The position numbers and the translations under genes were made by a program. A stretch of DNA of 64,000 nt from Maribellus sp. YY47 (GTDB lineage: Bacteria; Bacteroidota; Bacteroidia; Bacteroidales; Prolixibacteraceae): the NCBI RefSeq assembly GCF_023111095.1, contig NZ_JALGYW010000003.1, forward strand, positions 69,446 to 133,445, in the 5' to 3' direction. Shown piece by piece: positions 27,453 through 55,044 of the stretch (its first letter is position 1; each line of letters opens with the position of its first letter). Below the pieces are notes generated by a model that worked only from the letters and a program-made list of their open reading frames with translations, was not told the DNA's origin and did not search any database.

Positions 27453-28190
27453 ATGGCAGAAATGAATAATATTTTTCAAAAGATTGGCACTACGCAAACG
27501 CTTAGTCAAAAGATTGAGCGAAACATTGAACGTGCCATCAGGGAGAAGAAACTACCTGTAGGTTCGAAATTACCTTCGGAACGTGAACTTTGCGAGATGT
27601 TTGCCGTAAGCCGTACAGCCTTACGCGAAGCGCTTCGCCGGCTGAGCGCCCGCGGATTGATCGAGATCCGTAAAGGAAGCGGCATGATCGTTAAAAAGAT
27701 CAACATGAAAGATGCGATCGACTCGCTGAATCTTTATTACGACCTGAAGTTTGATATGGATCTGATTACCCAGATCATTGAACTGCGTTTGGCGTTTGAA
27801 CCGGAAATTGCCCGAATGGCTGCTGTGAACCGTACCGAAGACGATCTGAAAAATCTGACCACAAACCTGACCGAATTTGCGGCCTGTGATCCCGACAACA
27901 CCCAGTTGGAATCTGACCTGGATAACAAATTCCATTTAACCGTGGCGCGTGCTACCGGCAATCCTTTTGTAATTGTTACGATGGAACCCGTGCACAATTT
28001 GTTGCCACGTATGCGTAATTATATTTATGCCAACGTTGAAGGTGAAAAGGAAATCACTTTGGGTTACCACAAAGAAATTGTGAATGCCATTCGCGAAAAA
28101 GATGCCGACCGTGCCTACGAAAAGATGCAGGCCCACATCGGACGTAACATGCAGGTATACAATAAATTTCTTAAAAATTCAAATACGTAA
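27453..28190 (+). CDS. FadR-subfamily GntR transcriptional regulator
   Basis: 246 residues from the ATG at 27453 (MAEMNNIFQKI). The winged helix is canonical: GSKLPSERELCEMFAVSRTALREALRRLSARGLIEIRKGSGMIV. The C-terminal ~150 residues form the all-helical FCD effector domain, with a candidate metal or ligand site in DNKFHLTVARATGNP. It is convergent with murQ (8-bp gap) at the left end of the peptidoglycan locus and is the only transcription factor in it, so it probably controls the locus, perhaps responding to MurNAc-6-P, GlcNAc-6-P or gluconate-like acids. The recurrent TGTAA-N6-TTACA dyads are candidate binding sites. An earlier in-frame start at 27291 is less likely. Confidence 0.88.
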   Translation: MAEMNNIFQKIGTTQTLSQKIERNIERAIREKKLPVGSKLPSERELCEMFAVSRTALREALRRLSARGLIEIRKGSGMIVKKINMKDAIDSLNLYYDLKFDMDLITQIIELRLAFEPEIARMAAVNRTEDDLKNLTTNLTEFAACDPDNTQLESDLDNKFHLTVARATGNPFVIVTMEPVHNLLPRMRNYIYANVEGEKEITLGYHKEIVNAIREKDADRAYEKMQAHIGRNMQVYNKFLKNSNT

Positions 28191-28197
28191 GCCTTAC

Positions 28198-29010
28198 TTA
28201 CTTCTTGTAATTTTCCAGGACTTTGTTCACCGAACCGTGAACGAGCAGTAAGCGTCTTGACATTTCTTCATCGAAGCCGAGTTCTTCCATGATCATTCGC
28301 GTGCCCCGTTGAACCAGCTTCTGGTTGGTAAGCTGCATGTTTACCATCCGGTTGCCTTTTACCCTGCCCAATTTAATCATCAAAGTGGTAGTGATCATGT
28401 TGAGAATTAGTTTTTGCGACGTTCCCGATTTCATTCGCGTACTCCCCGACACGAACTCGGGTCCCACAATGGCTTCAATGGCAATATCCACATTTTGAGC
28501 CAATTCACTCTCCGGATTATTGGTAATACATCCGGTGAGAATCCCATGTGCTCTGGCCTGGCGCACCACGCCAACAACATAAGGCGTTCTGCCCGACGCA
28601 GCAATCCCAACTACGGTATCCAATTCATTGATATCAAATGCCTGAAGTTCCTGCCAGCCCAGTTCAACATTGTCTTCAGCGGCTTCCACCGCTTTTCGGA
28701 TGGCCTGGTCTCCACCGGCTATCAAACCAATTACCACGTCGTAACCAACGCCATAAGTAGGCGGAATTTCAGAAGCATCCAAAATACCCAAACGCCCGCT
28801 GGTACCGGCGCCTACATAAAAAAGCCGTCCTCCTTTTTTTATCCGTTCAACCGTTTTCAACACCAACTCTTCAATCTGCGGAATGGTTTTATAAACGGCA
28901 GGCAATACCTTTTTATCTTCTTCATGAATTCCTTCCAACAGCTCCCTGACAGACATTTGGTCAAGGTCATTATATAACGATTCCGACTCGGTTATGCTTT
29001 GATTGGTCAT
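28198..29010 (-). CDS. murQ: N-acetylmuramic acid 6-phosphate etherase
   Basis: 270 residues from the ATG at 29010; a longer frame to 29061 overlaps the kinase gene and adds residues absent from MurQ. The SIS domain is clear: FYVGAGTSGRLGILDASEIPPTYG and EFVSGSTRMKSGTSQKLILNM. MurQ cleaves the lactyl ether of MurNAc-6-phosphate to GlcNAc-6-phosphate and D-lactate in the cytosol. It follows the amino-sugar kinase by 10 bp, the same kinase-etherase pairing seen in the Tannerella forsythia murTKQ cluster. It is convergent with the GntR regulator. Confidence 0.95.
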   Translation of the reverse strand: MTNQSITESESLYNDLDQMSVRELLEGIHEEDKKVLPAVYKTIPQIEELVLKTVERIKKGGRLFYVGAGTSGRLGILDASEIPPTYGVGYDVVIGLIAGGDQAIRKAVEAAEDNVELGWQELQAFDINELDTVVGIAASGRTPYVVGVVRQARAHGILTGCITNNPESELAQNVDIAIEAIVGPEFVSGSTRMKSGTSQKLILNMITTTLMIKLGRVKGNRMVNMQLTNQKLVQRGTRMIMEELGFDEEMSRRLLLVHGSVNKVLENYKK

Positions 29011-29020
29011 TTCTGTAAAA

Positions 29021-29866
29021 TTATTTTTTGGGATTAGTATGGTAATCGTGTAAATGCTCAATTGGTTTTTGCAGAATTACGGTAGCCTGAAATCCGTATT
29101 CCCTGGCCGTGCTTTCAATGATTGCCCTGAAATTCCAGGCAATCGATCCTGAAAAACCGATAGGGTATTGTGTCGCATCCGGAATTTGTAATACATTTCG
29201 ATCCACAAACTCACAAAAGCTAGCTTTCACCAAATCTTCACAGTATTTCTCTGAAATATTTTCGGAAACAAATGGTGCAAATCCGGCCAAATATTTATTG
29301 GGGCGTTCGGTACGGTAAACTTTGTCCAACACCTCTGCCTGCGTTACTTTATATTTTTGTTGAAAGCGTTCCTTCAGGTCCTCCGGCATTACATTTTTAA
29401 AATAATCGCCCAGCAACTTTTTACCTAATGCCGAACCACTGCACTCATCCCCCAGAATAAATCCAAGTGGAGGAACTCCATATTCGATATTCTCGCCATT
29501 ATATAAACTGGCATTCGATCCGGTGCCTAAAATACAGGCGATTCCTTTCGAATGTTGGAACAAGGCTCTTGCAGCTGCCAGCAAATCACTGTTTGTTTCA
29601 ACTTTCGCATCAGGATATAAAGGAGCCAGCGCGGCTTTTATTACATCGCCACGTTCGGCATTGATGACACCCGCGCCATAAAAAAACACTTTGTCAACTT
29701 CAGGTACTTTTGAAAACAATGTGCCTTTAAGTTCCTGATAAATATCGTCGCTCGATCTAAAAAACGGATTTAATCCTTTGGTTTGAATCAACAAGGAATT
29801 ACCTTCAGCATCGGTATACAACCAATCTGTTTTTGTAGATCCGCTATCAGCAATTAAAATTGTCAT
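29021..29866 (-). CDS. murK: BadF/BadG-type amino-sugar kinase, MurK-like
   Basis: 281 residues of the ASKHA kinase fold. The first phosphate loop is ADSGSTKTDW and the second is CILGTGSNASLYNG; GFILGDECSGSALGKKLL follows. Members phosphorylate GlcNAc and/or MurNAc at the 6-hydroxyl. Its position directly upstream of murQ argues for MurNAc as a substrate, as with MurK of Tannerella. The start codon is only 4 nt after a TATATTTG -7 box (29871-29878), so the mRNA is predicted to be leaderless. It is divergent from the GH9-CE4 gene with an operator-like dyad between them. Confidence 0.88.
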   Translation of the reverse strand: MTILIADSGSTKTDWLYTDAEGNSLLIQTKGLNPFFRSSDDIYQELKGTLFSKVPEVDKVFFYGAGVINAERGDVIKAALAPLYPDAKVETNSDLLAAARALFQHSKGIACILGTGSNASLYNGENIEYGVPPLGFILGDECSGSALGKKLLGDYFKNVMPEDLKERFQQKYKVTQAEVLDKVYRTERPNKYLAGFAPFVSENISEKYCEDLVKASFCEFVDRNVLQIPDATQYPIGFSGSIAWNFRAIIESTAREYGFQATVILQKPIEHLHDYHTNPKK

Positions 29867-29870
29867 ACCA

Positions 29871-29878
29871 CAAATATA
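29871..29878 (-). promoter_or_regulatory. -7 box of murK, leaderless geometry
   Basis: On the minus strand the sequence is TATATTTG, a match to the Bacteroidota TAnnTTTG element. It ends 4 nt before the ATG at 29866, so transcription would start at or beside the start codon. Confidence 0.6.
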
Positions 29879-29897
29879 ATATTTTCACTGCACAAGA

Positions 29898-29913: not shown

Positions 29914-29917
29914 AATA

Positions 29918-29948
29918 TTGTTTTTCTCTTTTCTAAAAGTTAATTTTG
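29918..29948 (+). promoter_or_regulatory. promoter of the GH9-CE4 gene
   Basis: TTG (29918-29920), 20 bp, then TAATTTTG (29941-29948) fits the Bacteroidota TTTG/TTG-N19-21-TAnnTTTG promoter. The start codon is at 29972, giving a leader of about 20 nt. Confidence 0.6.
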
Positions 29949-29971
29949 AGGAGCCTAATAACATCTATTTT

Positions 29972-32449
29972 ATGAAAATATCGATCATTTCCTTCGTAAT
30001 TCTGAGTTTCTTTTGCAGCTTTTTTCAAGCTAACGCTGAAAATACGATCCGCATCAACCAACTGGGATATCTCCCCGAAGCAGCTAAAACAGCCGTATTC
30101 CTCAGTGATGAAAAAGAGAACATTCAAACCTTCAAGATCTATCATGCATTGTCCAACGAGGTGGTCTTTGAAGGGAAAGCAATCGCCGCTAACGCTGAGC
30201 TATGGGGAAAACAAACCGCTTACCAACTTGACTTCTCCGATTTCAAAAAAACGGGAGGTTATTACATTGTAGCGGGTTCCACACAATCACCGTCGTTCAG
30301 GATCGCCAACGACATTTACAGAGGAACAGCAGACTATATATTAAATTATATGCGCCAGCAACGGTGTGGCTTTAATCCCTTTTTCAACGATTCATGCCAT
30401 GTACACGACGGAGTTATTGTTGACCATCCAACGCGAAGCGGTGAACAAATTGATGTAACAGGAGGCTGGCACGATGCTTCTGATTATCTTCAATACGTCA
30501 CCACATCGGCAAATGCCACTTACCAAATGCTTTTCGCCTACCGGCAGAATCCAGGCGTTTTTGGTGATTTCTACAATTCCAACGGCTTACCCGGCAAAAA
30601 CGGAATCCCTGACATTCTTGACGAAGCACGCTGGGGGTTGGAGTGGCTCGTAAAAATGAATCCGGCAAAAAATGAAATGTACAACCAGATAGCCGACGAC
30701 CGTGACCACCGGGGATATCGCCTTCCGACCAAAGACACCGTTTCGTACGGACTGGGAAAGGCCCGCCCGGTTTATTTCGTAACAGGGAAACCACAGGGGC
30801 TTGGAAAACACAAGAACCGCAGTACCGGGGTAGCCTCCACTGCCGCTAAATATGCTTCGGCTTTTGCTTTAGGTTCTGAACTTTTCAAAAACATTGATTC
30901 CGGTTTTGCAGAAAAATTAGACACCAAAGCCACCGATGCCTGGGAATTTGCCATGTCAGATCCGGGAGAATGCCAAACCGCCTGTGTTGTTTCGCCCTAT
31001 TTTTATGAAGAAGGAAACTACATCGACGACATGGAGCTGGCTGCTGCCTCGCTTTACAACCAATCGGGAGATAAAACCTTCCGCCGGCAGGCAGATTACT
31101 GGGGCGAACTGGAACCGGTAACCCCATGGATGGAGTTGCACAGAGCCCGGCATTATCAGTATTACCCCTTTGTCAACCTGGGACATTATCTGCTGGCCCA
31201 ATCCGAAGATTCGGCTGTTGCAAAAAAATACCAGGCTTTAATGAAACAGGGACTGGAGGATATCAAACGGTACGCCGGCAATGATCCTTTTCAGATGGGG
31301 ATTCCGTTCGTGTGGTGCTCCAATAATTTTGTTGTGGCAGCAGCCACGCAGGCACGCCTTTACCGCCAACTAACCGGCGACAGGTCGTTCGAAAAAATGG
31401 AAGCGGCGCTTATCGACTGGCTTTGGGGCTGTAATCCGTGGGGCACGAGTATGATCTGTGGCTTCCCCGAAGGAGGCGATAATCCGCAGAATCCCCATTC
31501 ATCCATCACCGTGCTAATGCACCAAACAACTACCGGCGGCTTAGTTGACGGACCAGTATATCGCTACATATTCGAAAATCTGCGGGGAATAGAACTGACC
31601 CAAGAAGACGTGTATGCCAATTACCAAAAGGGTAAAGCCGTTTATCACGACGACATCGGAGACTATTCAACCAATGAACCTACAATGGATGGAACCGCCA
31701 GTTTGAGTTTTCTGCTTTCATCGCTGGAAAAGGATGGCCAAAACCAGGAATCGCTATCGAATGGCGTGAAAGACAGTGAAGGGGCCATCATACAAATGAA
31801 TACAAATCAGCCGAATGTATACCTCATCTTTTCGGCGCACGATTACAACGACGGAGGCGAAATCATCGCCAAAACATTGGATAGGCACAAGGTAAAAGCC
31901 TCGTTTTTTTTCACCGGAACTTTTTATGAAAATCCAGCCAACCGGAAGCTGATTCAAAAATTAATCAACGACGGCCATTACCTGGGCGCACATTCCGATA
32001 AACATTTACTGTATGCCGACTGGACCAAACGCGATTCGCTTTTGGTTAGCCGCAACGAATTTGAATCGGACTTAAAGGCCAACTACAGCAAAATGAAAGA
32101 CGCGGGAATAGAGATAACTTCAGCCAACTACTTTTTACCGCCTTACGAGTGGCATAACCAAAGTATTACCGATTGGTCGGCACAACTGGGCTTGTCGCTT
32201 GTAAATTTTACCCCGGGAATCAGAACCAATGCCGATTATACTACACCAGATATGAAGAATTACAAATCATCGGAGTGGATCCTGAACGATCTGAAAGAAA
32301 AAGAAAATACCCATCCGGGAAAACTAAACGGAAGCCTGATTCTGGTTCATCTCGGAACCAGCGAGAAACGTACCGATAAGTTATACAACCGCCTCGATGA
32401 CCTCATCAATTTTCTGGAAAACAAAGGATACCAACTCAAGCGATTGTAA
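29972..32449 (+). CDS. GH9 glycoside hydrolase fused to a CE4 (NodB) deacetylase domain
   Basis: 825 residues from the ATG at 29972, which gives a proper signal peptide (MKISIISFVILSFFCSFFQANA). Domains: cellulase N-terminal Ig-like (~25-110, IRINQLGYLPEAAKTAVF), GH9 (alpha/alpha)6 catalytic domain (~120-590) with GGWHDASDY (D168, D171) and the general acid E569 in TNEPTMDG, then a NodB-like polysaccharide deacetylase (~605-825) with SAHD in place of TFDD, HSDKH (H674/H678) and LPPYEW. GH9 includes exo-glucosaminidases as well as cellulases; the murein-locus context favours amino-sugar substrates. The deacetylase motif 1 is atypical but a metal-binding Asp and the HxxxH are kept. Periplasmic or secreted. 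Confidence 0.88.
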   Translation: MKISIISFVILSFFCSFFQANAENTIRINQLGYLPEAAKTAVFLSDEKENIQTFKIYHALSNEVVFEGKAIAANAELWGKQTAYQLDFSDFKKTGGYYIVAGSTQSPSFRIANDIYRGTADYILNYMRQQRCGFNPFFNDSCHVHDGVIVDHPTRSGEQIDVTGGWHDASDYLQYVTTSANATYQMLFAYRQNPGVFGDFYNSNGLPGKNGIPDILDEARWGLEWLVKMNPAKNEMYNQIADDRDHRGYRLPTKDTVSYGLGKARPVYFVTGKPQGLGKHKNRSTGVASTAAKYASAFALGSELFKNIDSGFAEKLDTKATDAWEFAMSDPGECQTACVVSPYFYEEGNYIDDMELAAASLYNQSGDKTFRRQADYWGELEPVTPWMELHRARHYQYYPFVNLGHYLLAQSEDSAVAKKYQALMKQGLEDIKRYAGNDPFQMGIPFVWCSNNFVVAAATQARLYRQLTGDRSFEKMEAALIDWLWGCNPWGTSMICGFPEGGDNPQNPHSSITVLMHQTTTGGLVDGPVYRYIFENLRGIELTQEDVYANYQKGKAVYHDDIGDYSTNEPTMDGTASLSFLLSSLEKDGQNQESLSNGVKDSEGAIIQMNTNQPNVYLIFSAHDYNDGGEIIAKTLDRHKVKASFFFTGTFYENPANRKLIQKLINDGHYLGAHSDKHLLYADWTKRDSLLVSRNEFESDLKANYSKMKDAGIEITSANYFLPPYEWHNQSITDWSAQLGLSLVNFTPGIRTNADYTTPDMKNYKSSEWILNDLKEKENTHPGKLNGSLILVHLGTSEKRTDKLYNRLDDLINFLENKGYQLKRL

Positions 32450-32577: not shown

Positions 32578-32591
32578 TAACATGTCATACA
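32576..32591. promoter_or_regulatory. operator-like dyad, site 2 (transglutaminase-like gene)
   Basis: TGTAACATGTCATACA, identical to site 1 in its first 10 bases and differing at three of the last six. It covers the end of the -7 box and the first codons, an ideal place to block initiation. Confidence 0.55.
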
Positions 32592-34033
32592 AATCAAACC
32601 AATATAACAAACTGAGCCTTCTTTTAATCGTGGTGCTTGCAACGATTATCTGTTCTTGTTCTTCGCGGGTTGACGAGATTTCATTTGAACAATACCTGAA
32701 TGATGGAAATTTCACCCAGCTTCAGACAAAGATCGATTCGCTAAAAAAATCGGGATCACCTCAGTGGACCAATTTTGAGCTGGATTCTTTAGAGTTATTA
32801 ATCCACGCCATCCGCCGTGATTTTTCGCGAAGCGAACAGGAAATTAAAAAGCAACTCCAGATTGACTTCCCGTTGGCTACCGATTCAGACATCATCAACT
32901 GGGAAAAATCGGGCCAACTTGAAATGCGTGTAATCGACGGAGAAAAGCGTTACTTCAGAAATGCAGTACCCAACTTACAGCGTTTACTTACGTTCGATGA
33001 GTTGAAAGCCCAAAAGGATACCCTATTTACTGTCGAGCCAAATTCGCTCACTGCTTTTCGTCTGGCGCATACGAAACAGGTTATCGAAGCCTGTAACGAA
33101 AATACCAACACGGTTCTTCCGCAACGCGTTACGTTTGCCTACACCCTTACTGTAAGACCCAATGCTGTACCTGATGGAGAAACGGTTCGTTGCTGGTTGC
33201 CTGCACCACGCGAAGGAAATCCGCGGCAAATTAATTTTCAACTGTTGGAATCCAATCCTGAAGCCTGCACGCTGGCTCCAAACAACTACCTGCAACGTAC
33301 TTTTTACATGGAGAAAAAAGCGGTAAAAGATGAGCCAACGGAATTTTCGGTTAAATTTTCGATGGAAACCCGGGCACAGTATTTCGATCTGAAACCCGAA
33401 AATATTCAGCCTTACGACACTACAAGTGAAGTTTATAGGAATAATACGGCCGAACGCCCACCGCATATTGTTTTCTCACCTGAGATGGTCGGGCTCGCCG
33501 GGCAAATCGTTGGCAATGAAACCAATCCACTAAAAAAGGCAGAGGCGATTTATACCTGGATCAGCAATTCCATTCCCTGGGCAAGTGCATTGGAATACGG
33601 AACTATTCCGAACATTCCGCACTATGTGTTAAGCAACCGTCATGGCGATTGCGGAATGCATACCCTCCTTTTTATGACTTTGGCCCGATCACAGGGTATT
33701 CCGGTAAAATGGCAAAGCGGTTTTATGCTTCATCCCGGGTTCGAGAATTTGCACGACTGGGCCGAAGTATATTACGAAGGAATTGGTTGGGTGCCGCTCG
33801 ATCAGTCGTTTAAACTGCAGCCAACAGACGACCCACAAGTTCACAATTTTTATTTTCATGGAATCGATGCCTATCGCCTGATAGTCAACGACGATTACGG
33901 AAGAAAACTATATCCGGAGAAAAAACATCCGCGCAGCGAACCTTATGATTTTCAACGCGGCGAAATGGAATGGAACGGAGGAAACCTATATTTTGACCAA
34001 TGGAGTTGGGACATGGATGTTACTTATCAATAA
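32582..34033 (+). CDS. transglutaminase-like lipoprotein
   Basis: 483 residues. N-terminal signal with a lipobox (VLATIICSC), so probably lipid-anchored. The C-terminal transglutaminase-core domain has C357 (HGDCGMHT), H391 (LHDWAEVYY) and D407 (PLDQSF), the cysteine-protease-like triad. Residues ~60-330 are of unknown fold. Bacterial members usually act as peptidases or amidases rather than cross-linkers. Located between GH9-CE4 and the symporter in the murein locus, it may cut muropeptide stems, but substrate is not known. The gap to the symporter gene is 54 bp. Confidence 0.82.
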   Translation: MSYKSNQYNKLSLLLIVVLATIICSCSSRVDEISFEQYLNDGNFTQLQTKIDSLKKSGSPQWTNFELDSLELLIHAIRRDFSRSEQEIKKQLQIDFPLATDSDIINWEKSGQLEMRVIDGEKRYFRNAVPNLQRLLTFDELKAQKDTLFTVEPNSLTAFRLAHTKQVIEACNENTNTVLPQRVTFAYTLTVRPNAVPDGETVRCWLPAPREGNPRQINFQLLESNPEACTLAPNNYLQRTFYMEKKAVKDEPTEFSVKFSMETRAQYFDLKPENIQPYDTTSEVYRNNTAERPPHIVFSPEMVGLAGQIVGNETNPLKKAEAIYTWISNSIPWASALEYGTIPNIPHYVLSNRHGDCGMHTLLFMTLARSQGIPVKWQSGFMLHPGFENLHDWAEVYYEGIGWVPLDQSFKLQPTDDPQVHNFYFHGIDAYRLIVNDDYGRKLYPEKKHPRSEPYDFQRGEMEWNGGNLYFDQWSWDMDVTYQ

Positions 34034-34087: not shown

Positions 34088-35536
34088 ATGAGTACATTGC
34101 TGATTGCTATCATTATTTTGTCGTTTTTTGCAGTATTAATGGGTGTGTCGTGGTTTACTTCGCGAAACGCCGACAGTGAAACTTTTTTTACCGGCAACCG
34201 TCGCTCTCCGTGGTACCTCGTGGCGTTCGGGATGATCGGATCGACCATTTCGGGTGTTACCTTTATTTCGGTACCCGGCGAGGTGGGCACTTCGGCCTGG
34301 ACTTACCTCCAATTCCTTCTCGGAAACTTTGTGGGTTACTGGGTGATTGCACTCGTACTTATTCCGCTTTACTACCGGTTGAACCTGGTTTCCATTTACA
34401 CCTATCTCGATCAGCGCTTTGGGCTGCGTTCTTACAAAACAGGAGCTTTCTTTTTCCTGGTTTCTCAAACCATCGGAGCTTCATTCAGATTATACCTTGC
34501 AGCCGGAGTTTTACAAATCGCCTTTTTTAATGATTTTGGAATCCCGTTTTGGCTCACCGTTTTGATTACTCTTTTCCTGATCTGGATTTACACCTATCGT
34601 GCGGGAATTAAAACCGTGGTTTGGACCGATTCTCTGCAAACGTTTTTTATTCTGGGAGCTGTCGGTATTACCATTTGGGTGATTTTAAACCAACTCGATT
34701 TAAACTTTGCCGACATGGTTACGGTGATTGACCATCATCCGTTTAGCCGCATTTTTGACTGGGACTGGAAATCAAAAACAAATTTCTTTAAACAATTTAT
34801 GGCAGGTGTCGGAATTGTACTGACCATGAACGGACTGGATCAGAACATGATGCAGAAGAACCTGACCTGTAAAACAAGAAAAGATGCACAAAAGAATATT
34901 TTCTGGTTTAGTTTTGCCTTTATTATTGCCAACATTTTCTTCCTTTCGCTGGGAGTGATGCTGTATTACTACGCAGCGCTAAAAGGCGTGGACCTGCCTT
35001 CGCGCACCGATGATCTTTTCCCGCTGCTTGCTATTAAATATTTCGGACCATTTGCAGGAGCTTTGTTTCTGTTGGGAATTTTATCAGCTGCATACTCCAG
35101 CGCCGATTCAGCATTAACTGCACTAACAACATCTTTCTGCATCGATTTTCTGAACCTCGATCCGGCGGCGCCCAAAAGCAAAAGAACCCGCATGCTGGTG
35201 CATGTAGGTTTTTCATTGCTGATGTTTCTGGTAATTGTTGTATTCCGAATTATCAATAACGAAAGCGTAGTTTCGGCTGTTTTCAGAGTGGCCGGTTATA
35301 CTTATGGCCCACTGCTGGGCTTGTTTGCATTCGGTATTCTTACCAAGCGACTGGTAAAAGACCGCTTTGTTCCGTTAGTTGGACTCATGTCGCCGGTACT
35401 GACCTACATTATTAATGCGTATTCAGAAGTGTTGTTTGGCGGCTACAAATTTGGGTTCGAACTTTTGCTTCTGAATGGAATGATCATGTTCACCGGCCTG
35501 TTAATTCTGTCGCATAAAAAAACGGACAGTAATTAA
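34088..35536 (+). CDS. sodium:solute symporter (SSS family)
   Basis: 482 residues with about 13 membrane helices of the LeuT-like SSS fold; the segment GWSRNADSETFFTGNRRSPW-like N-terminus (SRNADSETFFTGNRRSPWYL) and SAAYSSADSALTALTTSF are typical. Substrates of the family include sugars, sialic acid and amino acids. Here it is flanked by the transglutaminase-like gene and anmK, so MurNAc, anhydroMurNAc or a muropeptide is a sensible guess. Its stop codon overlaps that of the convergent anmK gene by 4 bp. Confidence 0.88.
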   Translation: MSTLLIAIIILSFFAVLMGVSWFTSRNADSETFFTGNRRSPWYLVAFGMIGSTISGVTFISVPGEVGTSAWTYLQFLLGNFVGYWVIALVLIPLYYRLNLVSIYTYLDQRFGLRSYKTGAFFFLVSQTIGASFRLYLAAGVLQIAFFNDFGIPFWLTVLITLFLIWIYTYRAGIKTVVWTDSLQTFFILGAVGITIWVILNQLDLNFADMVTVIDHHPFSRIFDWDWKSKTNFFKQFMAGVGIVLTMNGLDQNMMQKNLTCKTRKDAQKNIFWFSFAFIIANIFFLSLGVMLYYYAALKGVDLPSRTDDLFPLLAIKYFGPFAGALFLLGILSAAYSSADSALTALTTSFCIDFLNLDPAAPKSKRTRMLVHVGFSLLMFLVIVVFRIINNESVVSAVFRVAGYTYGPLLGLFAFGILTKRLVKDRFVPLVGLMSPVLTYIINAYSEVLFGGYKFGFELLLLNGMIMFTGLLILSHKKTDSN

Positions 35537-46656: not shown

Positions 46657-46698
46657 AAGAGAGGCTGCTGGTATAGCATGGCAGCCTCTCTTAATTTT
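46657..46698 (+). terminator. intrinsic terminator after susD
   Basis: AAGAGAGGCTGC (46657-46668) and GCAGCCTCTCTT (46681-46692) form a perfect 12-bp stem with a 12-nt loop, followed by AATTTT. Confidence 0.85.
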
Positions 46699-46743: not shown

Positions 46744-47958
46744 ATGAAACTGAGTTTAACTTTCTGTTCATTACTTCTGGCTTATATTTTAACAAGCGGA
46801 TGCAGCAGTTCAACTGAACGTTCAGAACCAAAATTAAAAGTTGGTGCTGAACGCTCTGAGATTTATCTTCCGATGCTTGCAGGGAAAAAAGTCGGGTTGG
46901 TAGTCAATCAAAGTTCAATGGTTGATTCAGTTCACTTAATCAATTTTCTGGTTAGTAAAGGCGTTGATGTAAGAGGTATTTACGCCCCTGAACATGGATA
47001 TAAAGGCAATGTTGAAAGAGGCGAACATGTTGATGGAACAACCGATCCTGAAACCGGAATTCCGGTATACTCTTTATACGGGAAGAACCATAAACCTTCG
47101 CCTGAAATACTCAAGGATATTGACGTGATGGTTTTTGATATGCAGGATGTTGGTGTTCGATTCTTTACTTATATCTATACAATGACCAGGGTAATGGAAG
47201 CTTCTGCCGAAAATGGCATAAAAGTTCTGGTTCTCGATCGTCCTAACCCTATTGGTTATTACGTCGATGGACCAATGCTAAAGCCAGGATTTGAAAGCGG
47301 CATAGGCTTATATCCCATTCCGGTAGTGCACGGCTTAACCGTTGGTGAGTTTGCAATGATGGTGAATGGCGAACGCTGGTTAAAGGATAGTATTCAATGC
47401 GATCTTGAAGTTATTAAAATTGAAAACTATACGCATGAAACCAAGTACCAGCTGCCTGTCTTCCCGTCGCCAAACCTGGCAGAAATGAAATCGATTTATC
47501 TTTATCCGTCTATTTGTTTGTTCGAAGGTGCCGATGTGAACGAAGGTCGCGGAACCTACAAACCTTTTCAACAGTTTGGGGCGCCGTATTATACGCCACA
47601 GGATTTTTCCTATGTTCCAAAGTCAATACCGGTACTTGCACTTCATCCAAAATTCGAAGGTGAAACCTGTTACGGTTACGACTTATCAGGAATGTCGTTA
47701 AAAGAACTTCAGGACATCAAACAGCTCGAAATAAAATACGTAATCGATTTCTACAATAAATGCGACGACAAAGAGAATTTCTTCACCTCGTTTTTTGATA
47801 AACTTGCGGGAACTGACCAGTTACGTTTACAAATCATCGAAGGAAAAACAGAAGAACAAATCAGGGCCAGTTGGCAGAAAGATCTGGACAAGTATAAACT
47901 AATGCGTAAAAATTATCTTTTATACGATGAAAGGAGCATAGCCACGCAAACACAATAG
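46744..47958 (+). CDS. namZ: DUF1343/GH171 exo-beta-N-acetylmuramidase lipoprotein
   Basis: 404 residues with a lipoprotein signal (LLAYILTSGC). It matches DUF1343, now GH171, whose founding member Bacillus NamZ removes MurNAc from the non-reducing ends of peptidoglycan chains. Conserved segments: YAPEHGYKGN (with the putative catalytic Glu), DMQDVGVRFFTYIYTM and LDRPNPIGYYVDGPML. Working alternately with NagZ it would peel glycan strands to free GlcNAc and MurNAc. It begins a new transcript after the susD terminator. Confidence 0.93.
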   Translation: MKLSLTFCSLLLAYILTSGCSSSTERSEPKLKVGAERSEIYLPMLAGKKVGLVVNQSSMVDSVHLINFLVSKGVDVRGIYAPEHGYKGNVERGEHVDGTTDPETGIPVYSLYGKNHKPSPEILKDIDVMVFDMQDVGVRFFTYIYTMTRVMEASAENGIKVLVLDRPNPIGYYVDGPMLKPGFESGIGLYPIPVVHGLTVGEFAMMVNGERWLKDSIQCDLEVIKIENYTHETKYQLPVFPSPNLAEMKSIYLYPSICLFEGADVNEGRGTYKPFQQFGAPYYTPQDFSYVPKSIPVLALHPKFEGETCYGYDLSGMSLKELQDIKQLEIKYVIDFYNKCDDKENFFTSFFDKLAGTDQLRLQIIEGKTEEQIRASWQKDLDKYKLMRKNYLLYDERSIATQTQ

Positions 47959-48062: not shown

Positions 48063-49250
48063 GTGAAATTTAGATTCTTATTCCTCATTGGTATTTATTG
48101 CTTTTCGGGGCTACATGCACAAACCGACAGTGTTCAAACAAACAATAATAACCTTGTTCTGAAAGGTACAAGCATTGGAGATTTGCCCTACCTTAAATAT
48201 GGCCCCGGGGCTGACCGTCTGGGCGGGGCAAAGATGACTTATCTGGATACTGCGGTTGTTTTACAGGTTATTGATAGTCTTGGTGATGACTATATTGTAC
48301 AACTATCAAAAAATCATAAAGCGCTTATACCAAAAGAAAATGTTCAACTTTCGGGGATGGAATCCAAACCTTCGTACTACCTTACATCTTCCTGGAATGT
48401 TGGTGGAGACGATAAAAATGACGTTGTAGCGATACGACTGGACGAAAGGCTCCCCTACAAAAGTATCCAGATGATTAATCCCTCGCGGATAGTTGTAGAT
48501 ATTTACGGCGCAACCAACAACTCGAACTGGATAACGCAACACCAAACCGCAACTGAAATAAAAAATGTGTTTTACGAACAGATAGAAGACGATGTTTTCC
48601 GCGTTATTATCGAACTAAAACATCAACAAATCTGGGGATATTCGATCGCCTATAAAGATAAATCCTTACGAATTTCGATAAAGCGCCAACCGGTTCGCCT
48701 TGCATTAAAAAACATGAAAATTGCGATAGATGCCGGGCATGGTGGCTCAAGCACCGGTGCGGTTGGAATAAAAACCGGTATTAAAGAAAAAGATTGTAAC
48801 CTCCAGGTAGCCAAAGAACTTGAAAACTATTTGAAACGCCGCGGAACAGATGTTTTTATGACCCGGGATAAAGATGAAGATATAAGCATGACGGATCGAA
48901 CATTAATGTTACGGGAAGAAAATCCGGATCTCTTAATCAGCATTCATCACAATGCCTCTTCCAATCCAACGATAAGCGGGGCAAGCACCTACTACCGTTA
49001 TATCGGATTTAGGCCACTTACAGTAACCATTTTGAACAGAATGCTTGAGCTCGGGCTAAATGACTTCGGCAATATTGGCAGTTTTAACTTTTCGTTGAAC
49101 GGCCCTACGGAATTTCCCAATTGCCTGGTTGAAGTGGCTTTTATGAGCAACGAGGCGGATGAAGAACGAATAAGCGATCCACATTTTCAAAAGAAAGCTG
49201 CGAAAAAAATTCGTAAAGGAATAATCGACTGGCTAAAAGAAAACCGGTAA
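48063..49250 (+). CDS. N-acetylmuramoyl-L-alanine amidase (Amidase_3) with SH3-like and AMIN-like domains
   Basis: 395 residues, starting at a GTG. Signal peptide (LFLIGIYCFSGLHAQ), an SH3-like segment (~35-100), an AMIN-like beta domain (~115-205, SIQMINPSRIVVDIYG) and a C-terminal zinc amidase (~215-395) with ligands H226 (DAGHGG), E242 and H295 (SIHHNAS) and catalytic E357 (VEVAF). It cleaves the bond between MurNAc and L-Ala, releasing stem peptides. Periplasmic or surface-directed. The next gene starts 4 bp downstream or at its internal ATG 43 bp on. Confidence 0.92.
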   Translation: MKFRFLFLIGIYCFSGLHAQTDSVQTNNNNLVLKGTSIGDLPYLKYGPGADRLGGAKMTYLDTAVVLQVIDSLGDDYIVQLSKNHKALIPKENVQLSGMESKPSYYLTSSWNVGGDDKNDVVAIRLDERLPYKSIQMINPSRIVVDIYGATNNSNWITQHQTATEIKNVFYEQIEDDVFRVIIELKHQQIWGYSIAYKDKSLRISIKRQPVRLALKNMKIAIDAGHGGSSTGAVGIKTGIKEKDCNLQVAKELENYLKRRGTDVFMTRDKDEDISMTDRTLMLREENPDLLISIHHNASSNPTISGASTYYRYIGFRPLTVTILNRMLELGLNDFGNIGSFNFSLNGPTEFPNCLVEVAFMSNEADEERISDPHFQKKAAKKIRKGIIDWLKENR

Positions 49251-49293
49251 ACCAATGAAACACGATCATAAACATTTCTATTTTATTCAATCG

Positions 49294-51132
49294 ATGAGAA
49301 AAATTGCAATCCTCTTCCTCCTGTGTTTTCAAATAGGAATACTTTCAGCACAAACATTTCGTTTTGCGCATGTTACCGATACTCATGTGGGAGGAAGCAC
49401 CGGTGCCGAAGACCTGACAATCACCGTGAACGATATCAATGCGCAGGACGACATCGACTTTGTAATTCTTTCGGGAGACATTACGGAATTCGGTTCTGAT
49501 GAAGAGCTAAACGAAGCGAAATCAATCATTTCAAAACTCAATAAACCATGGTACATTGTGCCGGGGAATCACGATTCCAAATGGTCGGAAAGCGGGAACA
49601 ACAGTTTTGTCCGCATTTTCGGGTGCGAAGAATTTACCTTCGAAGCCGGCGGCTATCTGTTTATCGGAACTGCCAGCGGCCCCAACATGCGAATGGCTCC
49701 GGGCCTGGTTCCGCACGAACAAATCGTTTACCTCGACTCGGTTCTAAACAACATGAAAGATCCCGATCAGCCGATCATTTTTGTGAATCATTACCCGCTC
49801 GACAATTCACTATCCAATTGGTACAAAATCATCGATCTGCTTAAGACCCGCAACATTCAGGCTGACCTTTTGGGACATGGGCACAGTAACAAGGTATTTG
49901 ATTTTGAAGGAATCCCCGGAGTAATGGGACGTTCCAATCTGCGGGCAAAAAAAGAAATTGGCGGGTACAACCTTGTTACCATTCAACAGGACACCATGTT
50001 TTATGCAGAACGAACTCCGGGCATAAAAACCAACGAAGTTTGGTGCAAAATACCTCTGGTTAATCACCATTTTGCTACTGACCAAACAGAATACCCTCGT
50101 CCGGATTATTCGATAAATGACAAATATCCCGACGTTTCTAAAGTTTGGGAGGTTCAGGATGTTAGCGATATCGGAACCGGACTTACTGCCGAAGGGAATA
50201 TCGCGGTTTACGGGAATGCTGCCGGAGCCATTGTCGCTCTCGACAAGAACACGGGCAAAACCATTTGGCAATTCCAGACTGCAGGAAAAATCTATTCAAC
50301 ACCGGCGATTACAAAAAACAAAGTAGTTTGCGCTTCTACCGACAATAATATTTACTGTGTTGACCTGAAAAGCGGTAAAAAACGTTGGAGTTTCGCCACC
50401 GGGAAATCAATCGTAGCTTCACCAGCAATCGATAAAAATTCGTTTTTTATCGGATCATCTGAAGGAATCTTCCGTTCCCTTAACCTGAAAACAGGCAAAC
50501 TTAACTGGGAATTCAATGAAGTAAACAACTTTGTGGAAAGTAAACCGCTGGTTTATGAAGGCAAAGTTTATTTCGGATCGTGGGGTAACACTTTTTATGC
50601 GTTGGATGCCAAAACAGGAAAGCTGAAGTGGAAGCGTGAAAAATACAGCAACCGGATGTTGTCGCCTGCCGCGGTTTGGCCGGTGGCTGCCAACGGAAAA
50701 ATATTTATTGTAGCGCCCGATCAGCGCATGACCGCACTGGATGCCCAAACCGGAAAGGAAATCTGGGATTCAAAAGAATATTCCTGCCGCGAATCGATTG
50801 GTATTTCAAAAGACGGTGAACTGGTGTACATCAAGAACATGCACGAAGGAAATGTGGATGCCTTTTATACTTCGGCTGATGAACAAAAACTGGCGTGGGA
50901 ATGCAAAGCCGAACTGGGCTATGAAATTGCCCCCTCTCCGATTACCGAGGCCGGAAATTTCGTGTTTGTGCCAACCACTGAAGGAATTGTGTGTGCGGTT
51001 GACAAAACAACACACGAAGTGGCCTGGAAATACAAAGCATCAAATGCGCTGGTAAATTACATTCTTCCGATCGAAAATAACCAGGTGTTGGTTTCGCTGC
51101 TGGATGGAAAAATCGTGTGTTTAAAATATTGA
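49294..51132 (+). CDS. calcineurin-like metallophosphoesterase fused to a PQQ-type beta propeller
   Basis: 612 residues from the ATG at 49294, which starts a clean signal peptide (MRKIAILFLLCFQIGILSAQ); an upstream ATG at 49255 is possible. N-terminal phosphoesterase (~22-245) has all metal motifs: HVTDTH, LSGDITEFG, PGNHDSKW, VNHYP and LLGHGHSNK. The C-terminal ~370 residues contain PQQ/quinoprotein-like repeats (for example NTGKTIWQFQTAGKIYSTPA, SGKKRWSFATGKSIVASPA). Substrate unknown; in a cell-wall locus a phosphorylated sugar, teichoic-acid-like polymer or lipid carrier is conceivable. Confidence 0.86.
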   Translation: MRKIAILFLLCFQIGILSAQTFRFAHVTDTHVGGSTGAEDLTITVNDINAQDDIDFVILSGDITEFGSDEELNEAKSIISKLNKPWYIVPGNHDSKWSESGNNSFVRIFGCEEFTFEAGGYLFIGTASGPNMRMAPGLVPHEQIVYLDSVLNNMKDPDQPIIFVNHYPLDNSLSNWYKIIDLLKTRNIQADLLGHGHSNKVFDFEGIPGVMGRSNLRAKKEIGGYNLVTIQQDTMFYAERTPGIKTNEVWCKIPLVNHHFATDQTEYPRPDYSINDKYPDVSKVWEVQDVSDIGTGLTAEGNIAVYGNAAGAIVALDKNTGKTIWQFQTAGKIYSTPAITKNKVVCASTDNNIYCVDLKSGKKRWSFATGKSIVASPAIDKNSFFIGSSEGIFRSLNLKTGKLNWEFNEVNNFVESKPLVYEGKVYFGSWGNTFYALDAKTGKLKWKREKYSNRMLSPAAVWPVAANGKIFIVAPDQRMTALDAQTGKEIWDSKEYSCRESIGISKDGELVYIKNMHEGNVDAFYTSADEQKLAWECKAELGYEIAPSPITEAGNFVFVPTTEGIVCAVDKTTHEVAWKYKASNALVNYILPIENNQVLVSLLDGKIVCLKY

Positions 51133-51176: not shown

Positions 51177-52370
51177 ATGAATCACAAGTTTTCAAAAAAA
51201 TGCAATTTCTTAAGCCTGGCGTCTTTTATTGCATGGCTAAGCCTGATTGTTTTTTCCTGCCAATCTCCGCAGCAAAAAGAATCATTTGATACCTTAGTGA
51301 ACGAAACATCCACCCAATTTGCACCAGACAAGCGAGTGGCGGTTTTAAATCTTGAAATTGAAACGCCGAAACAGGGAACAGTTATTCTGAAAGGAGAAAC
51401 AAACCTGCAGGAAGCGCACACATTTTTGCTTGATAAACTTGCTTCGATGAATGTTTCGGTGACCGACTCAATCCGGCTGCTTCCCGATGCCAAACTGGGA
51501 GATAAAACCTGGGGCCTGGTCACGCTTTCGGTCATTCCGATGCGCAAAAACCATGCATATTCAGCTGAGATGGTTTCGCAAACCATTATGGGAACACCCA
51601 TAAAATTGCTGGATAAAAAAGGTGGCTGGTACCTGGTTCAAACTCCCGATCAATACATTGGCTGGGTATACAGTAGCGGAATTGTTGCATTGACCGAATC
51701 AGAATTGAATGCATGGAAATCCTCCAACCGGTATATTTTTATTTCCATGAACGGATCAGCAGTGGAAGCTCCGCAAAACGATGCAACAGTGGTTTCAGAC
51801 CTTGTCCTTGGGAATATCTTTGAAGCAGAACAAACTGCCAACGGTTTTCTGAAAATAACGCTTCCGGACGGGCGTAAAGGCTTTGTTCGCTCTGCTGATT
51901 GTATGGATTTTGACCTATGGAAAACCAGAATACCGGAAGCGAACAATATCATCGAAACAGCTAAGAAAATGTTGGGAAGTCCTTACCTGTGGGGAGGAAC
52001 TTCCACCAAAGGAATTGACTGTTCCGGCTTTACCAAAACAGCTTACTTCTCGCAAGGGGTTATGCTGGCGCGCGATGCGTCGCAGCAGGCACTTTATGGC
52101 GAACAGCTCAACGTGAGCAACTTTCAGTTTCAACCGGGCGATTTATTGTTTTTTGGCCGAAGCAAGGACCGAATCACGCACGTGGGATTGTACATCGGCG
52201 ACGATCACTTTATTCACTCATCGGGACGCGTTCGAATCAACAGCTTCAATCCGAATGATGAAGATTACGAGGAGGGACGAAAAAAGAGCCTGGTGGCAGC
52301 ATGCCGCGTTCTGAATTCATTAAATACCGGGCACATTATCCCGATAAAAGATCACCCCTGGTACAATTAG
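51177..52370 (+). CDS. NlpC/P60 (C40) endopeptidase with SH3 domains, YkfC-like
   Basis: 397 residues. The N-terminus has a hydrophobic signal ending SLIVFSC, a probable lipobox. Two SH3-like domains (~120-190 and ~200-255) precede the papain-like NlpC/P60 domain (~260-385) with C282 (GIDCSGF), H335 (ITHVGLYIG) and H347 (HFIHSSG). The layout equals YkfC-type gamma-D-glutamyl-L-diamino acid endopeptidases, which release L-Ala-D-Glu from murein tripeptides. This fits the adjacent epimerase gene, 41 bp downstream, whose substrate is that dipeptide. Confidence 0.92.
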   Translation: MNHKFSKKCNFLSLASFIAWLSLIVFSCQSPQQKESFDTLVNETSTQFAPDKRVAVLNLEIETPKQGTVILKGETNLQEAHTFLLDKLASMNVSVTDSIRLLPDAKLGDKTWGLVTLSVIPMRKNHAYSAEMVSQTIMGTPIKLLDKKGGWYLVQTPDQYIGWVYSSGIVALTESELNAWKSSNRYIFISMNGSAVEAPQNDATVVSDLVLGNIFEAEQTANGFLKITLPDGRKGFVRSADCMDFDLWKTRIPEANNIIETAKKMLGSPYLWGGTSTKGIDCSGFTKTAYFSQGVMLARDASQQALYGEQLNVSNFQFQPGDLLFFGRSKDRITHVGLYIGDDHFIHSSGRVRINSFNPNDEDYEEGRKKSLVAACRVLNSLNTGHIIPIKDHPWYN

Positions 52371-52411: not shown

Positions 52412-53548
52412 ATGGAACAATCGAGAAGGACATTTATTCGTTCAGCCGGTTTATTATCGGTTGCCGGAATGACAGGAGTTAATACATTTGCAGCAATGAG
52501 CAAAAATCAGTCAAAAGCAATAAAAAGTGGGTTGAAACTTCGGTTTAAACCTTACGATCTGCAACTGAAACACACTTTCACGCTTGCCGGAAGTTCGCGT
52601 ACCACCACAGCGGTGATGTTAACTGAAATTGAGTACGACGGTATTGTTGGTTACGGAGAAGCTTCGATGCCGCCCTATTTGGGTGAAAGCCATGCAACGG
52701 CTACAAAATTTCTGAGTTCACTCGATTTAAGCCAGTTTAACGATCCTTTCCGTTTGGATGAAATACTCGAATACGTCGATCAGAAAGCCGAAGGCAACTG
52801 CGCTGCCAAGGCTTCGGTAGACATTGCGTTGCACGACCTGCTCGGGAAAATTATGGGCCAACCGTGGTACAAAATCTGGGGTTTTAATGCTGAAGACACA
52901 CCAAATACTTCGTTCACCATTGGAATTGATACCGATGAAGTGATTCGCCAGAAAGTAAAAGAAGCCGCAGGTTTTAAAATCCTGAAAGTAAAACTTGGAC
53001 GTGACAACGACAAACAGATGATCGAAACCATTCGCTCGGTGACCGATGTGCCGATGTGTGTGGATGTAAACCAGGGCTGGACCGACAAAAAACACGCGCT
53101 GGAAATGACGCAGTGGCTGAAAGAAAAAGGGATCGAATTTGTGGAGCAACCCATGCCCAAAACCGCCATCGACGATATTGCCTGGCTAACGCAACACAGT
53201 CCGCTGCCGATTATTGCTGACGAAGCTTTGCAACGTTTACCCGATGTAAAAAAAGCCCACGGAATTTATTCCGGGATCAATATTAAACTGATGAAATGCA
53301 CAGGTATGCGCGAGGCTCATAAAATGATTACCCTGGCCCGCGCACTCGACATGAAAGTAATGATCGGTTGTATGACCGAGACGTCGTGCGCAGTTTCTGC
53401 CGCGGCACAACTCGCTCCAAAAGTAGACTGGGCCGATCTTGACGGTAATCTGCTCATCAGTAACGACGTATTTAGCGGCGTTCAGGTGGTTGATGGAAAA
53501 ATCACCTTGATCGACCAGCCCGGAATTGGTATCACACCAATTTCCTAA
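52412..53548 (+). CDS. L-Ala-D/L-Glu dipeptide epimerase with a Tat signal
   Basis: 378 residues of the enolase superfamily. Catalytic residues align with known Ala-Glu epimerases: K192/K194 (LKVKLG), metal ligands D218 (VDVNQG), E245 (VEQPMP) and D270 (ADEAL), and K292 (NIKLMK). The N-terminus MEQSRRTFIRSAGLLSVAGM has a twin-arginine motif and hydrophobic stretch, so the folded enzyme is predicted to go to the periplasm by the Tat route, whereas E. coli YcjG is cytosolic. It converts L-Ala-D-Glu to L-Ala-L-Glu, which can be used as an ordinary dipeptide. It follows the YkfC-like gene. Confidence 0.92.
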   Translation: MEQSRRTFIRSAGLLSVAGMTGVNTFAAMSKNQSKAIKSGLKLRFKPYDLQLKHTFTLAGSSRTTTAVMLTEIEYDGIVGYGEASMPPYLGESHATATKFLSSLDLSQFNDPFRLDEILEYVDQKAEGNCAAKASVDIALHDLLGKIMGQPWYKIWGFNAEDTPNTSFTIGIDTDEVIRQKVKEAAGFKILKVKLGRDNDKQMIETIRSVTDVPMCVDVNQGWTDKKHALEMTQWLKEKGIEFVEQPMPKTAIDDIAWLTQHSPLPIIADEALQRLPDVKKAHGIYSGINIKLMKCTGMREAHKMITLARALDMKVMIGCMTETSCAVSAAAQLAPKVDWADLDGNLLISNDVFSGVQVVDGKITLIDQPGIGITPIS

Positions 53549-53578
53549 AAGCCTCAATTTTTAGTTGAAATAATTACC

Positions 53579-53626
53579 AAAGTGAAACAACCTGTTTAAA
53601 ACGCAGTTTGTTTCACTTTTTCTTTT
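53579..53626. terminator. bidirectional terminator between the epimerase and cstA genes
   Basis: AAAGTGAAACAA (53579-53590 from the preceding A's) pairs with TTGTTTCACTTT (53608-53619), followed by a T-rich tract. The right arm encodes the last residues of the minus-strand cstA gene, whose stop codon is in the loop at 53596-53598. Confidence 0.75.
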
Positions 53627-55044
53627 TTAAGCGCTCGCAGGTAAACAAAAAACGCAGCCAAACTAATTACTGAGATGGACATTCCAACCGAATAGGAGAT
53701 TTCTTTTGAAAGCGAAAATCCTTCCGGAGCAAACATCAGGTAAGTCGTAATTACTGCGGTCATGAAAACGGCAGGGATCAAGGTCATCCAGTAGAATTTC
53801 TGTTCTTTTGCCAGATAAACGGTTATGGTCCAAAGCACCACTGTTGCCAGCGTTTGGTTCGACCATGCAAAATACCGCCAGATAATACTGAAATCGATTT
53901 GAGTCAGCAAAAAGCCGATTAGAAATAAGGGAATACTGATCAGCAAGCGATTCCCGATCGATTTCTGTTTAAGATTCAGGAAGTCGGCAACAATCAAACG
54001 CGCACTTCTGAACGCTGTATCTCCCGAGGTGATAGGAGCTGCCACTACGCCTAACAAAGCCAGCACTCCACCCAAAGTACCGAGCAGCGAATTGGATATT
54101 TCGTTCACCACAAAAGCAGCATTACCGTTATTGGCATTCATAACATCGTTGAGCTCCCTGATTCCTCCAAAGAAACTCATACCAATGGCAGCCCAGATTA
54201 AGGCAACAACTCCCTCGGTGATCATTGCCCCGTAAAAAACCCTTCTTCCGTATTTTTCGTTGGTAAGACATCGAGCCATCAATGGCGACTGGGTTGCATG
54301 AAATCCGGAGATCGCACCACAGGCTATGGTTATGAACAACATTGGGAAAATCGGAAATTTATCCGATTCCGAATGAAAATTGGTAATACTCGCCAGGTTC
54401 AATTCCGGAATATGATAGCCTTTCACAAAAAGTGCAATGATTAATCCCAGCGCCATAAATACAAGGGCAAAACCAAAGATCGGGTAAAGCCGGCCAATAA
54501 TCTTATCGATAGGTAACATCGTGGCCAGCAAGTAATACACAAATACCACCCACACCCAGAATGTCATGGAAAGCACACCGGGAGTTAACCCTGCCAGGAT
54601 TTTTGCCGGCCCCATAATAAATACAGCGCCTACAATAATCATCAGAATCACGGTAAATCCGCGCATGAATTGTTTCGCTCCTGTTCCCAGATAAATTCCG
54701 ACAATCTCGGTAATACTCAATCCCCGGTGTTTGATCGACAACATTCCTGAGAAATAATCGTGCACAGCTCCGGCAAATACCGATCCCAACACAATCCAAA
54801 GGAAGGCAACCGGTCCCCACATGGCGCCTGCAATGGCTCCGAAAATGGGCCCCAAACCTGCAATATTCAGAAACTGGATCAGGAAGATACGCCACCACGG
54901 AAGCGGAAGGTAATCCACCCCGTCTTTCATCGAATAAGCAGGAGTTTCCCTGGCCGGATCAATGCCGCCTATTCTTTCGACAATTCGGGAATATAAAATG
55001 TATCCAAGGATTAAAATTATCAGAGAAACAGAAAATGTAATCAT
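53596..55044 (-). CDS. cstA: CstA-family peptide/pyruvate carrier
   Basis: 482 residues with about a dozen membrane helices, shorter than E. coli CstA (~700) but the usual size in Bacteroidota. Diagnostic segments: PWWRIFLIQFLNIAGLGPIF, AGAVHDYFSGMLSIKHRG and SGFHATQSPLMARC. Family members move peptides or pyruvate. Convergent with the dipeptide epimerase gene, it is a natural inner-membrane importer for L-Ala-L-Glu or other stem-peptide fragments; this is inference from context. A weak operator-like sequence lies at 55114-55129. Confidence 0.93.
   Translation of the reverse strand: MITFSVSLIILILGYILYSRIVERIGGIDPARETPAYSMKDGVDYLPLPWWRIFLIQFLNIAGLGPIFGAIAGAMWGPVAFLWIVLGSVFAGAVHDYFSGMLSIKHRGLSITEIVGIYLGTGAKQFMRGFTVILMIIVGAVFIMGPAKILAGLTPGVLSMTFWVWVVFVYYLLATMLPIDKIIGRLYPIFGFALVFMALGLIIALFVKGYHIPELNLASITNFHSESDKFPIFPMLFITIACGAISGFHATQSPLMARCLTNEKYGRRVFYGAMITEGVVALIWAAIGMSFFGGIRELNDVMNANNGNAAFVVNEISNSLLGTLGGVLALLGVVAAPITSGDTAFRSARLIVADFLNLKQKSIGNRLLISIPLFLIGFLLTQIDFSIIWRYFAWSNQTLATVVLWTITVYLAKEQKFYWMTLIPAVFMTAVITTYLMFAPEGFSLSKEISYSVGMSISVISLAAFFVYLRALKKEKVKQTAF

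Follow-up and report, generated by a model that had tools for sequence, protein, structure and literature searches.

Gene clusters for the use of peptidoglycan (murein) fragments have been described from several bacteria, and the closest to the locus considered here is a murein polysaccharide utilization locus (PUL) in the genome of the symbiont Urechidicola, described in 2023 (PMC10199937). As set out in that source, this single ~27-kb PUL brings together a SusC/SusD (SusCD) importer, murQ, a sodium co-transporter, an L-Ala-D/L-Glu epimerase, an amidase, GH3 and GH171, and it also has deoR, ampG, nagB, dacA, ampD, GH18, GH10 and two SusCD pairs; two of four SusCD pairs are highly transcribed, and whether these are the pairs of the murein PUL is not stated in the text concerned (PMC10199937). 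The Bacillus subtilis cluster murQ-murR-murP-amiE-nagZ-ybbC combines MurQ with two enzymes for muropeptides, an amidase and an extracellular NagZ, and uses phosphotransferase system (PTS) import and MurR (PMC5061867). In Tannerella forsythia, also one of the Bacteroidetes, the operon murT-murK-murQ encodes an N-acetylmuramic acid (MurNAc) kinase, an etherase and a membrane protein, and SusCD, NamZ and a peptide arm are not mentioned in the operon as described (PMC5790795); an AnmK ortholog was not predicted there (PMC7670621). RmNag3 of Rhodothermus marinus is a GH3 beta-N-acetylglucosaminidase with a beta-lactamase domain, which its authors link to peptidoglycan turnover and whose described neighbours include no SusCD (PMC6987092). 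Here we describe a locus of 17 genes in a stretch of 64,000 nucleotides from Maribellus sp. YY47 (the window, part of contig C23 in a genome of 5.04 Mb in 55 contigs) that is probably a PUL for soluble peptidoglycan fragments.

The locus resembles the Urechidicola PUL in all the shared components just listed but differs in having GntR, AnmK, MurK, NagX, GH9-deacetylase, NlpC/P60 and CstA genes, and in being without AmpG and NagB; compared with the B. subtilis cluster it has TonB/SusCD, a sodium:solute symporter (SSF) and a kinase in place of PTS import and MurR. The view in an earlier note on this DNA, that a peptidoglycan PUL with its own SusCD is not a standard described system, was thus too strong (PMC10199937). 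In the open-licence literature the Urechidicola PUL is the sole earlier SusCD murein cluster found, and experimental work on a peptidoglycan PUL did not come to our notice there. What is new here is the enrichment test, the spread of one SusCD clade over nine families, the two-block history of the locus and the link to NagX.

The 17 genes occupy ~28 kb between 27291/27453 and 55044, on both strands, in the order GntR, MurQ, MurK-type kinase, GH9-deacetylase, transglutaminase-like protein, SSF, AnmK, NagX, GH3-beta-lactamase, SusC, SusD, NamZ, Amidase_3, phosphoesterase-propeller, NlpC/P60, epimerase and CstA; the nine genes from NagX to the epimerase follow one another on the + strand, no gap exceeding 150 bases. 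Genes were assigned with Pfam and NCBIfam profiles, with phmmer against solved chains for the kinase, and with the nearest solved chains for several other enzymes. Part of what defines a PUL is present, in that SusC and SusD are adjacent and glycan-active enzymes (GH3, GH171 and GH9) and a GntR regulator lie alongside. The earlier note had counted about 14 murein genes together; the families it named were confirmed, but the count is 17, the GH3 protein is a beta-lactamase fusion, and five genes had been left out (SSF symporter, NagX, GH9-deacetylase, transglutaminase-like protein and phosphoesterase-propeller).

Comparative support for the PUL reading comes from the importer and its relatives. 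The SusC TonB-dependent transporter (41415..44783, + strand; Pfam CarbopepD_reg_2, Plug and TonB_dep_Rec_b-barrel) is separated by 13 bases from a SusD lipoprotein (44797..46629, + strand; Pfam SusD_RagB 8.2e-27), whose Cys-Asp-Asp after the lipobox is consistent with surface display and which was assigned to a murein-linked clade from its relatives' neighbourhoods. As a query, this SusD found 21 places in 18 of 393 genomes of the order at E <= 1e-60, and 22 of 395 genomes of the class at E <= 1e-40, with three candidates scored per genome. Up to 20 kb of flanking sequence was read at the in-order places of the order search (19 loci, one of them containing two places and the window excluded) and at one neighbourhood in each of 10 of the 16 genomes from outside the order, chosen by score; the in-order places G129, G281 and G043:C62 of the class search, and L060 and L061, lie outside the counts. 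Six markers (NamZ, MurQ, MurK, AnmK, AmpG and GHL10) were searched with queries from the window and the surveyed loci, and since this set was fixed after the in-order loci had been viewed, the 10 outside loci are the cleaner test.

At least one marker was near SusD at 13 of the 19 loci within the order and 8 of the 10 beyond it, compared with 2 among 20 control loci around other SusDs; the total of 21/29 versus 2/20 gives an odds ratio of 23.6 (Fisher p = 2.4e-5, with loci treated as independent and kinship ignored). The 21 positive loci span nine families by database labels, six in the order and three outside it, so that the co-occurrence of SusCD with murein genes across lineages, proposed earlier as a check, was found. 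The controls were the top (14) and second (6) Pfam SusD matches, among the matches listed, of 14 in-order genomes rather than random draws, and in 8 of the 20 a flank fell short of 20 kb, while two of them overlap (both G375:C14). Among the clade loci G352, G413 and G283 were short, and one side was short in G253, G303_C6, G331, G328 and G663. NamZ alone was near SusD at 9/19 in-order and 5/10 outside loci (controls 2/20), and GHL10 at 7/19 and 5/10 (controls 0/20). The arrangements can be extensive, as in G157 (SusC, SusD, GHL10, NamZ, SSF, GT2, DUF4922, AmpG, NamZ, NagX, MurK, MurQ, phosphoesterase, GH9) and, outside the order, in G514 and G630 (NagX, GH3-beta-lactamase, SSF, MurQ, NamZ, SusD, SusC); Bacteroides sp. 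MI.10_1 (L061) is a further example from beyond the counts.

GHL10 is, we presume, the Pfam family of Escherichia coli DigH, and E. coli does contain a match to the family. DigH breaks down murein glycans that carry no peptides (PMC12288456). In L093 (12693-15839) a GHL10 protein and a DUF4623 protein stand beside the clade SusCD, and likewise in G331, G083_C8, G303_C6, G454 and L061; these are candidates for a surface endo-enzyme and a glycan-binding protein for peptide-free murein.

Comparison within the genus, in which NamZ was searched for in 24 other members, bears on the history of the locus. NagX, GH3-beta-lactamase, SusC, SusD, NamZ and phosphoesterase occur with order kept in 6/24 (G002, G004, G005, G006, G010 and G024), the neighbourhoods of the remaining members having been read in part. 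This importer block is 77-86% identical in the five other than G004, and in G004 the amidase is inserted in it as in the window. In Maribellus sp. CM-23 (G004) the whole set of 17 is present with gene order kept, at identities of 69-95% (GntR at 92% over 90% of its length). GntR and CstA are the outermost genes that this genome's cluster shares with the window, and the window's flanking TonB receptor and phosphoesterase/lactonase-like protein were not found beside the G004 cluster within 20 kb past GntR and 7.5 kb past CstA. Among 17 members besides G004 whose MurQ neighbourhoods were read, a block of MurQ, MurK, epimerase, NlpC, transglutaminase-like protein and GntR is present in seven (G002, G005, G006, G008, G010, G014 and G024) and partial in G003, G009 and G013, the remainder having MurK/MurQ only, or in G022 GntR and NagX as well. 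In the window and G004 the importer block is joined to the MurQ/MurK/peptide block, but the two lie apart in the five other members that hold both; the full 17-gene set is therefore not ancient. That separation is also what would be expected of a chance neighbourhood of unrelated genes, an explanation made very improbable by the enrichment (p = 2.4e-5) relative to the control SusD loci and by the gene order kept in G004.

Maribellus luteus (L052, 21 kb read) has part of the joined form, with NagX, GH3-beta-lactamase, NamZ, amidase and phosphoesterase 83-90% identical and NlpC 70%. A second SusCD pair lies between phosphoesterase and NlpC in G004 (L043 11478-16466) and in M. luteus (L052 14678-19666). 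The window has no such pair, and in G375 the clade SusCD is adjoined by a relative of the SusD concerned.

Several findings weigh against a PUL for peptidoglycan fragments. In the place of the clade SusCD, M. luteus (L052 3929-9794) has a SusC that covers 38% of the query at 28% identity, together with a SusD-like protein of another kind and one of 277 aa; since the flanks are kept, the import step appears to be exchangeable there. Markerless loci make up 6/19 in the order (G253, G352, G328, G247, G413 and G283) and 2/10 outside it (G725 and G745), the misses in G352, G328, G413 and G283 falling on short contigs or contig ends, and the control SusD loci with markers (G157, NamZ; G247, NamZ, AmpG and others) show that other SusDs can adjoin such genes. 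The predicted SusD model has a SusD fold (predicted local distance difference test, pLDDT, 85.6) and yields no ligand clue, its structure search returning general SusD relatives only (12-20% identity among the 50 matches listed). Finally, a GH9-deacetylase together with NagX would also suit chitin or chitosan. The GH9 protein (29918..32449, + strand, with the likely start at the ATG at 29972) has CelD_N and a C-terminal polysaccharide-deacetylase domain (Pfam 1.8e-72 / 2.4e-11), and it could, with the GH3 beta-N-acetylglucosaminidase, belong to a PUL for chitin/chitosan or other N-acetylglucosamine (GlcNAc) glycans that adjoins murein genes; NagX is frequent in chitin operons according to one account (PMC9007349). 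This is improbable, as the locus has 0 GH18/GH19/GH20 matches, NamZ, MurQ, AnmK, amidase and NlpC would be useless for chitin, and the SusD clade accompanies murein genes in nine families. Deacetylase activity is itself doubtful because the domain retains HSDKH while its first motif differs from the usual TFDDG.

The enzymes of the locus fit the use of peptidoglycan fragments, beginning with the sugars. Exo-acting removal would depend on two proteins. The first (38263..41271, + strand) is a NagZ-type GH3 beta-N-acetylglucosaminidase fused to a beta-lactamase-like serine hydrolase (Pfam GH3 3.9e-80, Beta-lactamase 8.2e-46); its GH3 domain matches YbbD (3bmx) at 1.4e-61, with KHFPGHGDT..DSH common to both, and the nearest solved chains to the other domain, which we take to be a candidate AmiE-like amidase, are Flp and a PBP-related beta-lactamase. 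The second is NamZ (46744..47958, + strand), an exo-beta-N-acetylmuramidase of GH171 (Pfam NamZ_N 2.1e-76, NamZ_C 9.7e-33; 4jja 1.7e-118), the protein encoded by ybbC in B. subtilis. By eye it is a probable lipoprotein, as is the transglutaminase-like protein mentioned below, both being without a match to the lipobox pattern used. NamZ relatives were also seen in two metagenome-assembled genomes labelled Helicobacteraceae (L057 and L058; 49-50% identical to the window NamZ, with a distant SSF match and AnmK), which reflects either gene transfer or mis-binning, and Parapedobacter luteus (L059 10001-14709) has three consecutive NamZ matches followed by MurQ and SSF.

The MurNAc catabolic pair is present as a MurNAc kinase relative and the etherase MurQ with conserved motifs. 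MurQ (28198..29061, - strand; SIS/GKRP) matches Pfam GKRP_SIS_N at 1.3e-19 and TIGR00274 at 2.8e-88 (296.5 bits, slightly below the 302 cut-off); its real start is probably internal, giving a 270 aa form, and 'DASEIPPT' and 'E.AED' are conserved among aligned cluster members. The MurK-like (NagK-like) MurNAc/GlcNAc kinase (29021..29866, - strand) has 0 Pfam matches and was placed by phmmer (1zxo 2.1e-73, 8ow9 7.2e-66), its near relative 8ow9 being labelled 'putative novel MurNAc kinase'. A Pfam scan of the 17 locus proteins recognized no family of murein endo-glycosidases, and NagA (two matches above cut-off), AmpG relatives and the genome's best GHL10 match (contig C43) lie on other contigs. 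The earlier description of the locus as complete, and as acting on intact wall fragments from the surface, therefore goes too far; the locus would need fragments that others release or that an enzyme from elsewhere in the genome makes, for example the GHL10 protein of C43.

For the peptides there are an N-acetylmuramoyl-L-alanine amidase (48063..49250, + strand; Amidase_3 and AMIN, Pfam 1.5e-42 / 4.2e-8), an NlpC/P60 and SH3 endopeptidase of the dipeptidyl-peptidase VI type (51177..52370, + strand; 3pvq 3.3e-64, 3npf 6.3e-63) and an L-Ala-D/L-Glu type dipeptide epimerase of the MR_MLE group (52412..53548, + strand). The endopeptidase is a lipoprotein with a lipobox, without the acidic stretch seen in SusD. 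The epimerase falls below the cut-offs of the NCBIfam racemase/epimerase models and matches 3iji, presumably a Bacteroides dipeptide epimerase, at 1.2e-153; its first 15 residues contain the twin-arginine-like RRTFIRS, which would place it in the periplasm. The ykf operon of B. subtilis likewise combines a dipeptide epimerase with a gamma-D-Glu endopeptidase, but here the two are joined to the sugar arm and, by the N-terminus, would be exported. The use of both sugars and peptides that the earlier note envisaged thus agrees with the gene families, which cover both arms.

AnmK (35533..36645, - strand; Pfam 1e-154, NF007139 over cut-off) bears on whose walls are consumed. It acts on the anhydro-sugars that lytic transglycosylases produce, as is typical of wall turnover in Gram-negatives, and since it has one match only in the whole genome, and the sole other MurQ-type match is no better than 1e-7, housekeeping recycling must use both genes. 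The cluster could then be one that recovers fragments of the cell's own wall turnover, with SusCD merely recapturing leakage. We consider this unlikely, because a dedicated SusCD, an epimerase that is exported to judge by its N-terminus, and an NlpC/P60 exceed the needs of recycling, and because several genus members (e.g. G008 and G014) have the MurQ/MurK block with no second, window-type NamZ found in the NamZ search.

As a PUL for peptidoglycan fragments the locus would work as follows. SusD and SusC would capture muropeptides or murein glycans devoid of peptides and carry them into the periplasm. The enzymes would lie inside the outer membrane, where stem peptides would be stripped by the amidase and perhaps also by the beta-lactamase-like domain, and the GH3 domain and then NamZ would alternately remove GlcNAc and MurNAc from the non-reducing end. 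From the peptides NlpC/P60 would free L-Ala-D-Glu, which the exported epimerase would convert to L-Ala-L-Glu. Amino sugars may cross the inner membrane through the SSF symporter (34088..35536, + strand; Pfam SSF 1.9e-24), a candidate importer whose relatives adjoin NamZ elsewhere in the genus and in further families, and peptides through a CstA-family transporter for peptide or pyruvate (53596..55044, - strand; Pfam CstA 8.1e-63) found at the matching cluster border in G004. MurNAc 6-phosphate would arise in the cytoplasm through AnmK and the MurK-type kinase, and MurQ would convert it to GlcNAc 6-phosphate and D-lactate, with NagA, encoded elsewhere in the genome, finishing the route.

NagX (37003..38112, + strand) belongs to the transmembrane glucosamine N-acetyltransferase family related to HGSNAT (NF046061 3.7e-46, HGSNAT 1.9e-25), though it fails the curated cut-off of NF046061 (157.9 versus 480 bits). 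It was near the clade SusCD at 8/19 in-order and 5/10 other loci compared with 0/20 controls, and it directly adjoins MurK at 7/8 of the in-order loci that bear it. His39 aligns with the histidine of human HGSNAT KHASW and is kept in 13/13 aligned sequences, the window included; a conserved catalytic histidine of NagX is mentioned in the literature (PMC9007349), which we would read as His39. In the same account, fitness data from five bacteria implicate NagX in glucosamine use, transmembrane acetylation is proposed, and NagX is distantly related to the reported MurNAc transporter TfMurT (PMC9007349), a protein elsewhere assigned instead to the sodium symporter superfamily (PMC5790795). NagX may be an acetyltransferase or a MurNAc transporter. 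A tentative and rather doubtful extension of the acetyltransferase reading is that the SusCD clade is a class-wide murein-glycan importer of Bacteroidia whose HGSNAT-like NagX re-acetylates de-N-acetylated (lysozyme-resistant) glucosamine and muramic acid ends in the periplasm; if true, NagZ and NamZ, which require N-acetyl groups, could run through chemically masked foreign walls.

There are known PULs for glycans from plants, algae, fungi and hosts; the SusCD system for wall fragments is probably a genuine nutrient system that has hardly been studied. If the conserved importer does take up the walls of others, Bacteroidia would feed on the murein of dead neighbours by a dedicated route, which would help to explain the fate of necromass murein and of immune-active muropeptides. 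The survey supplies a defined SusCD clade for testing.

The first gene of the locus encodes a GntR/FadR-type (FCD) regulator (27453..28190, + strand, with the open reading frame opening at 27291; Pfam GntR 1.2e-20, FCD 2.2e-25), which likely starts at Met55 at 27453, giving 245 aa where relatives have 239-246 aa. Relatives adjoin SusCD and phosphoesterase in G096, and MurQ/NlpC/epimerase in other genus members. A hairpin between SusD and NamZ (46657..46692, + strand; 14 pairs, 7 G-C, weak T tail) is a possible attenuator that would lower enzyme expression relative to SusCD, terminator-like sites not being enriched overall (23 found, 20.0 expected). The FadR-type operator TNGTNNNACNA is not enriched in the window (12 matches, 14.6 expected), and a Bacteroidota promoter pattern, TTTG-N18-22-TANNTTTG, occurred 0 times in 12 intergenic regions. 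The earlier proposal of one regulon gains no support from the use of both strands, the SusD/NamZ hairpin and the FadR-type counts.

Two genes have a less evident place in the locus. An exported protein with a transglutaminase-like core lies at 32582..34033 (+ strand; Pfam Transglut_core 2.1e-20). The other (49255..51132, + strand; Pfam and predicted model) joins a calcineurin-like phosphoesterase (Metallophos) to a BamB-like beta-propeller (PQQ) and was near the clade SusCD at 7/19 in-order and 5/10 outside loci (12/29 in total) compared with 0/20 controls; we know of no murein role for it, and its model is modest (pLDDT 74.6, four sequences), with the structure matches listed covering the propeller only (BamB). 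Rfam at gathering scores gave 0 matches within the window. Upstream of the locus, at 18518-26612, a PepSY_TM-flavodoxin reductase, a DUF2271 protein, an ankyrin protein and a TonB receptor resemble an iron-uptake cluster.

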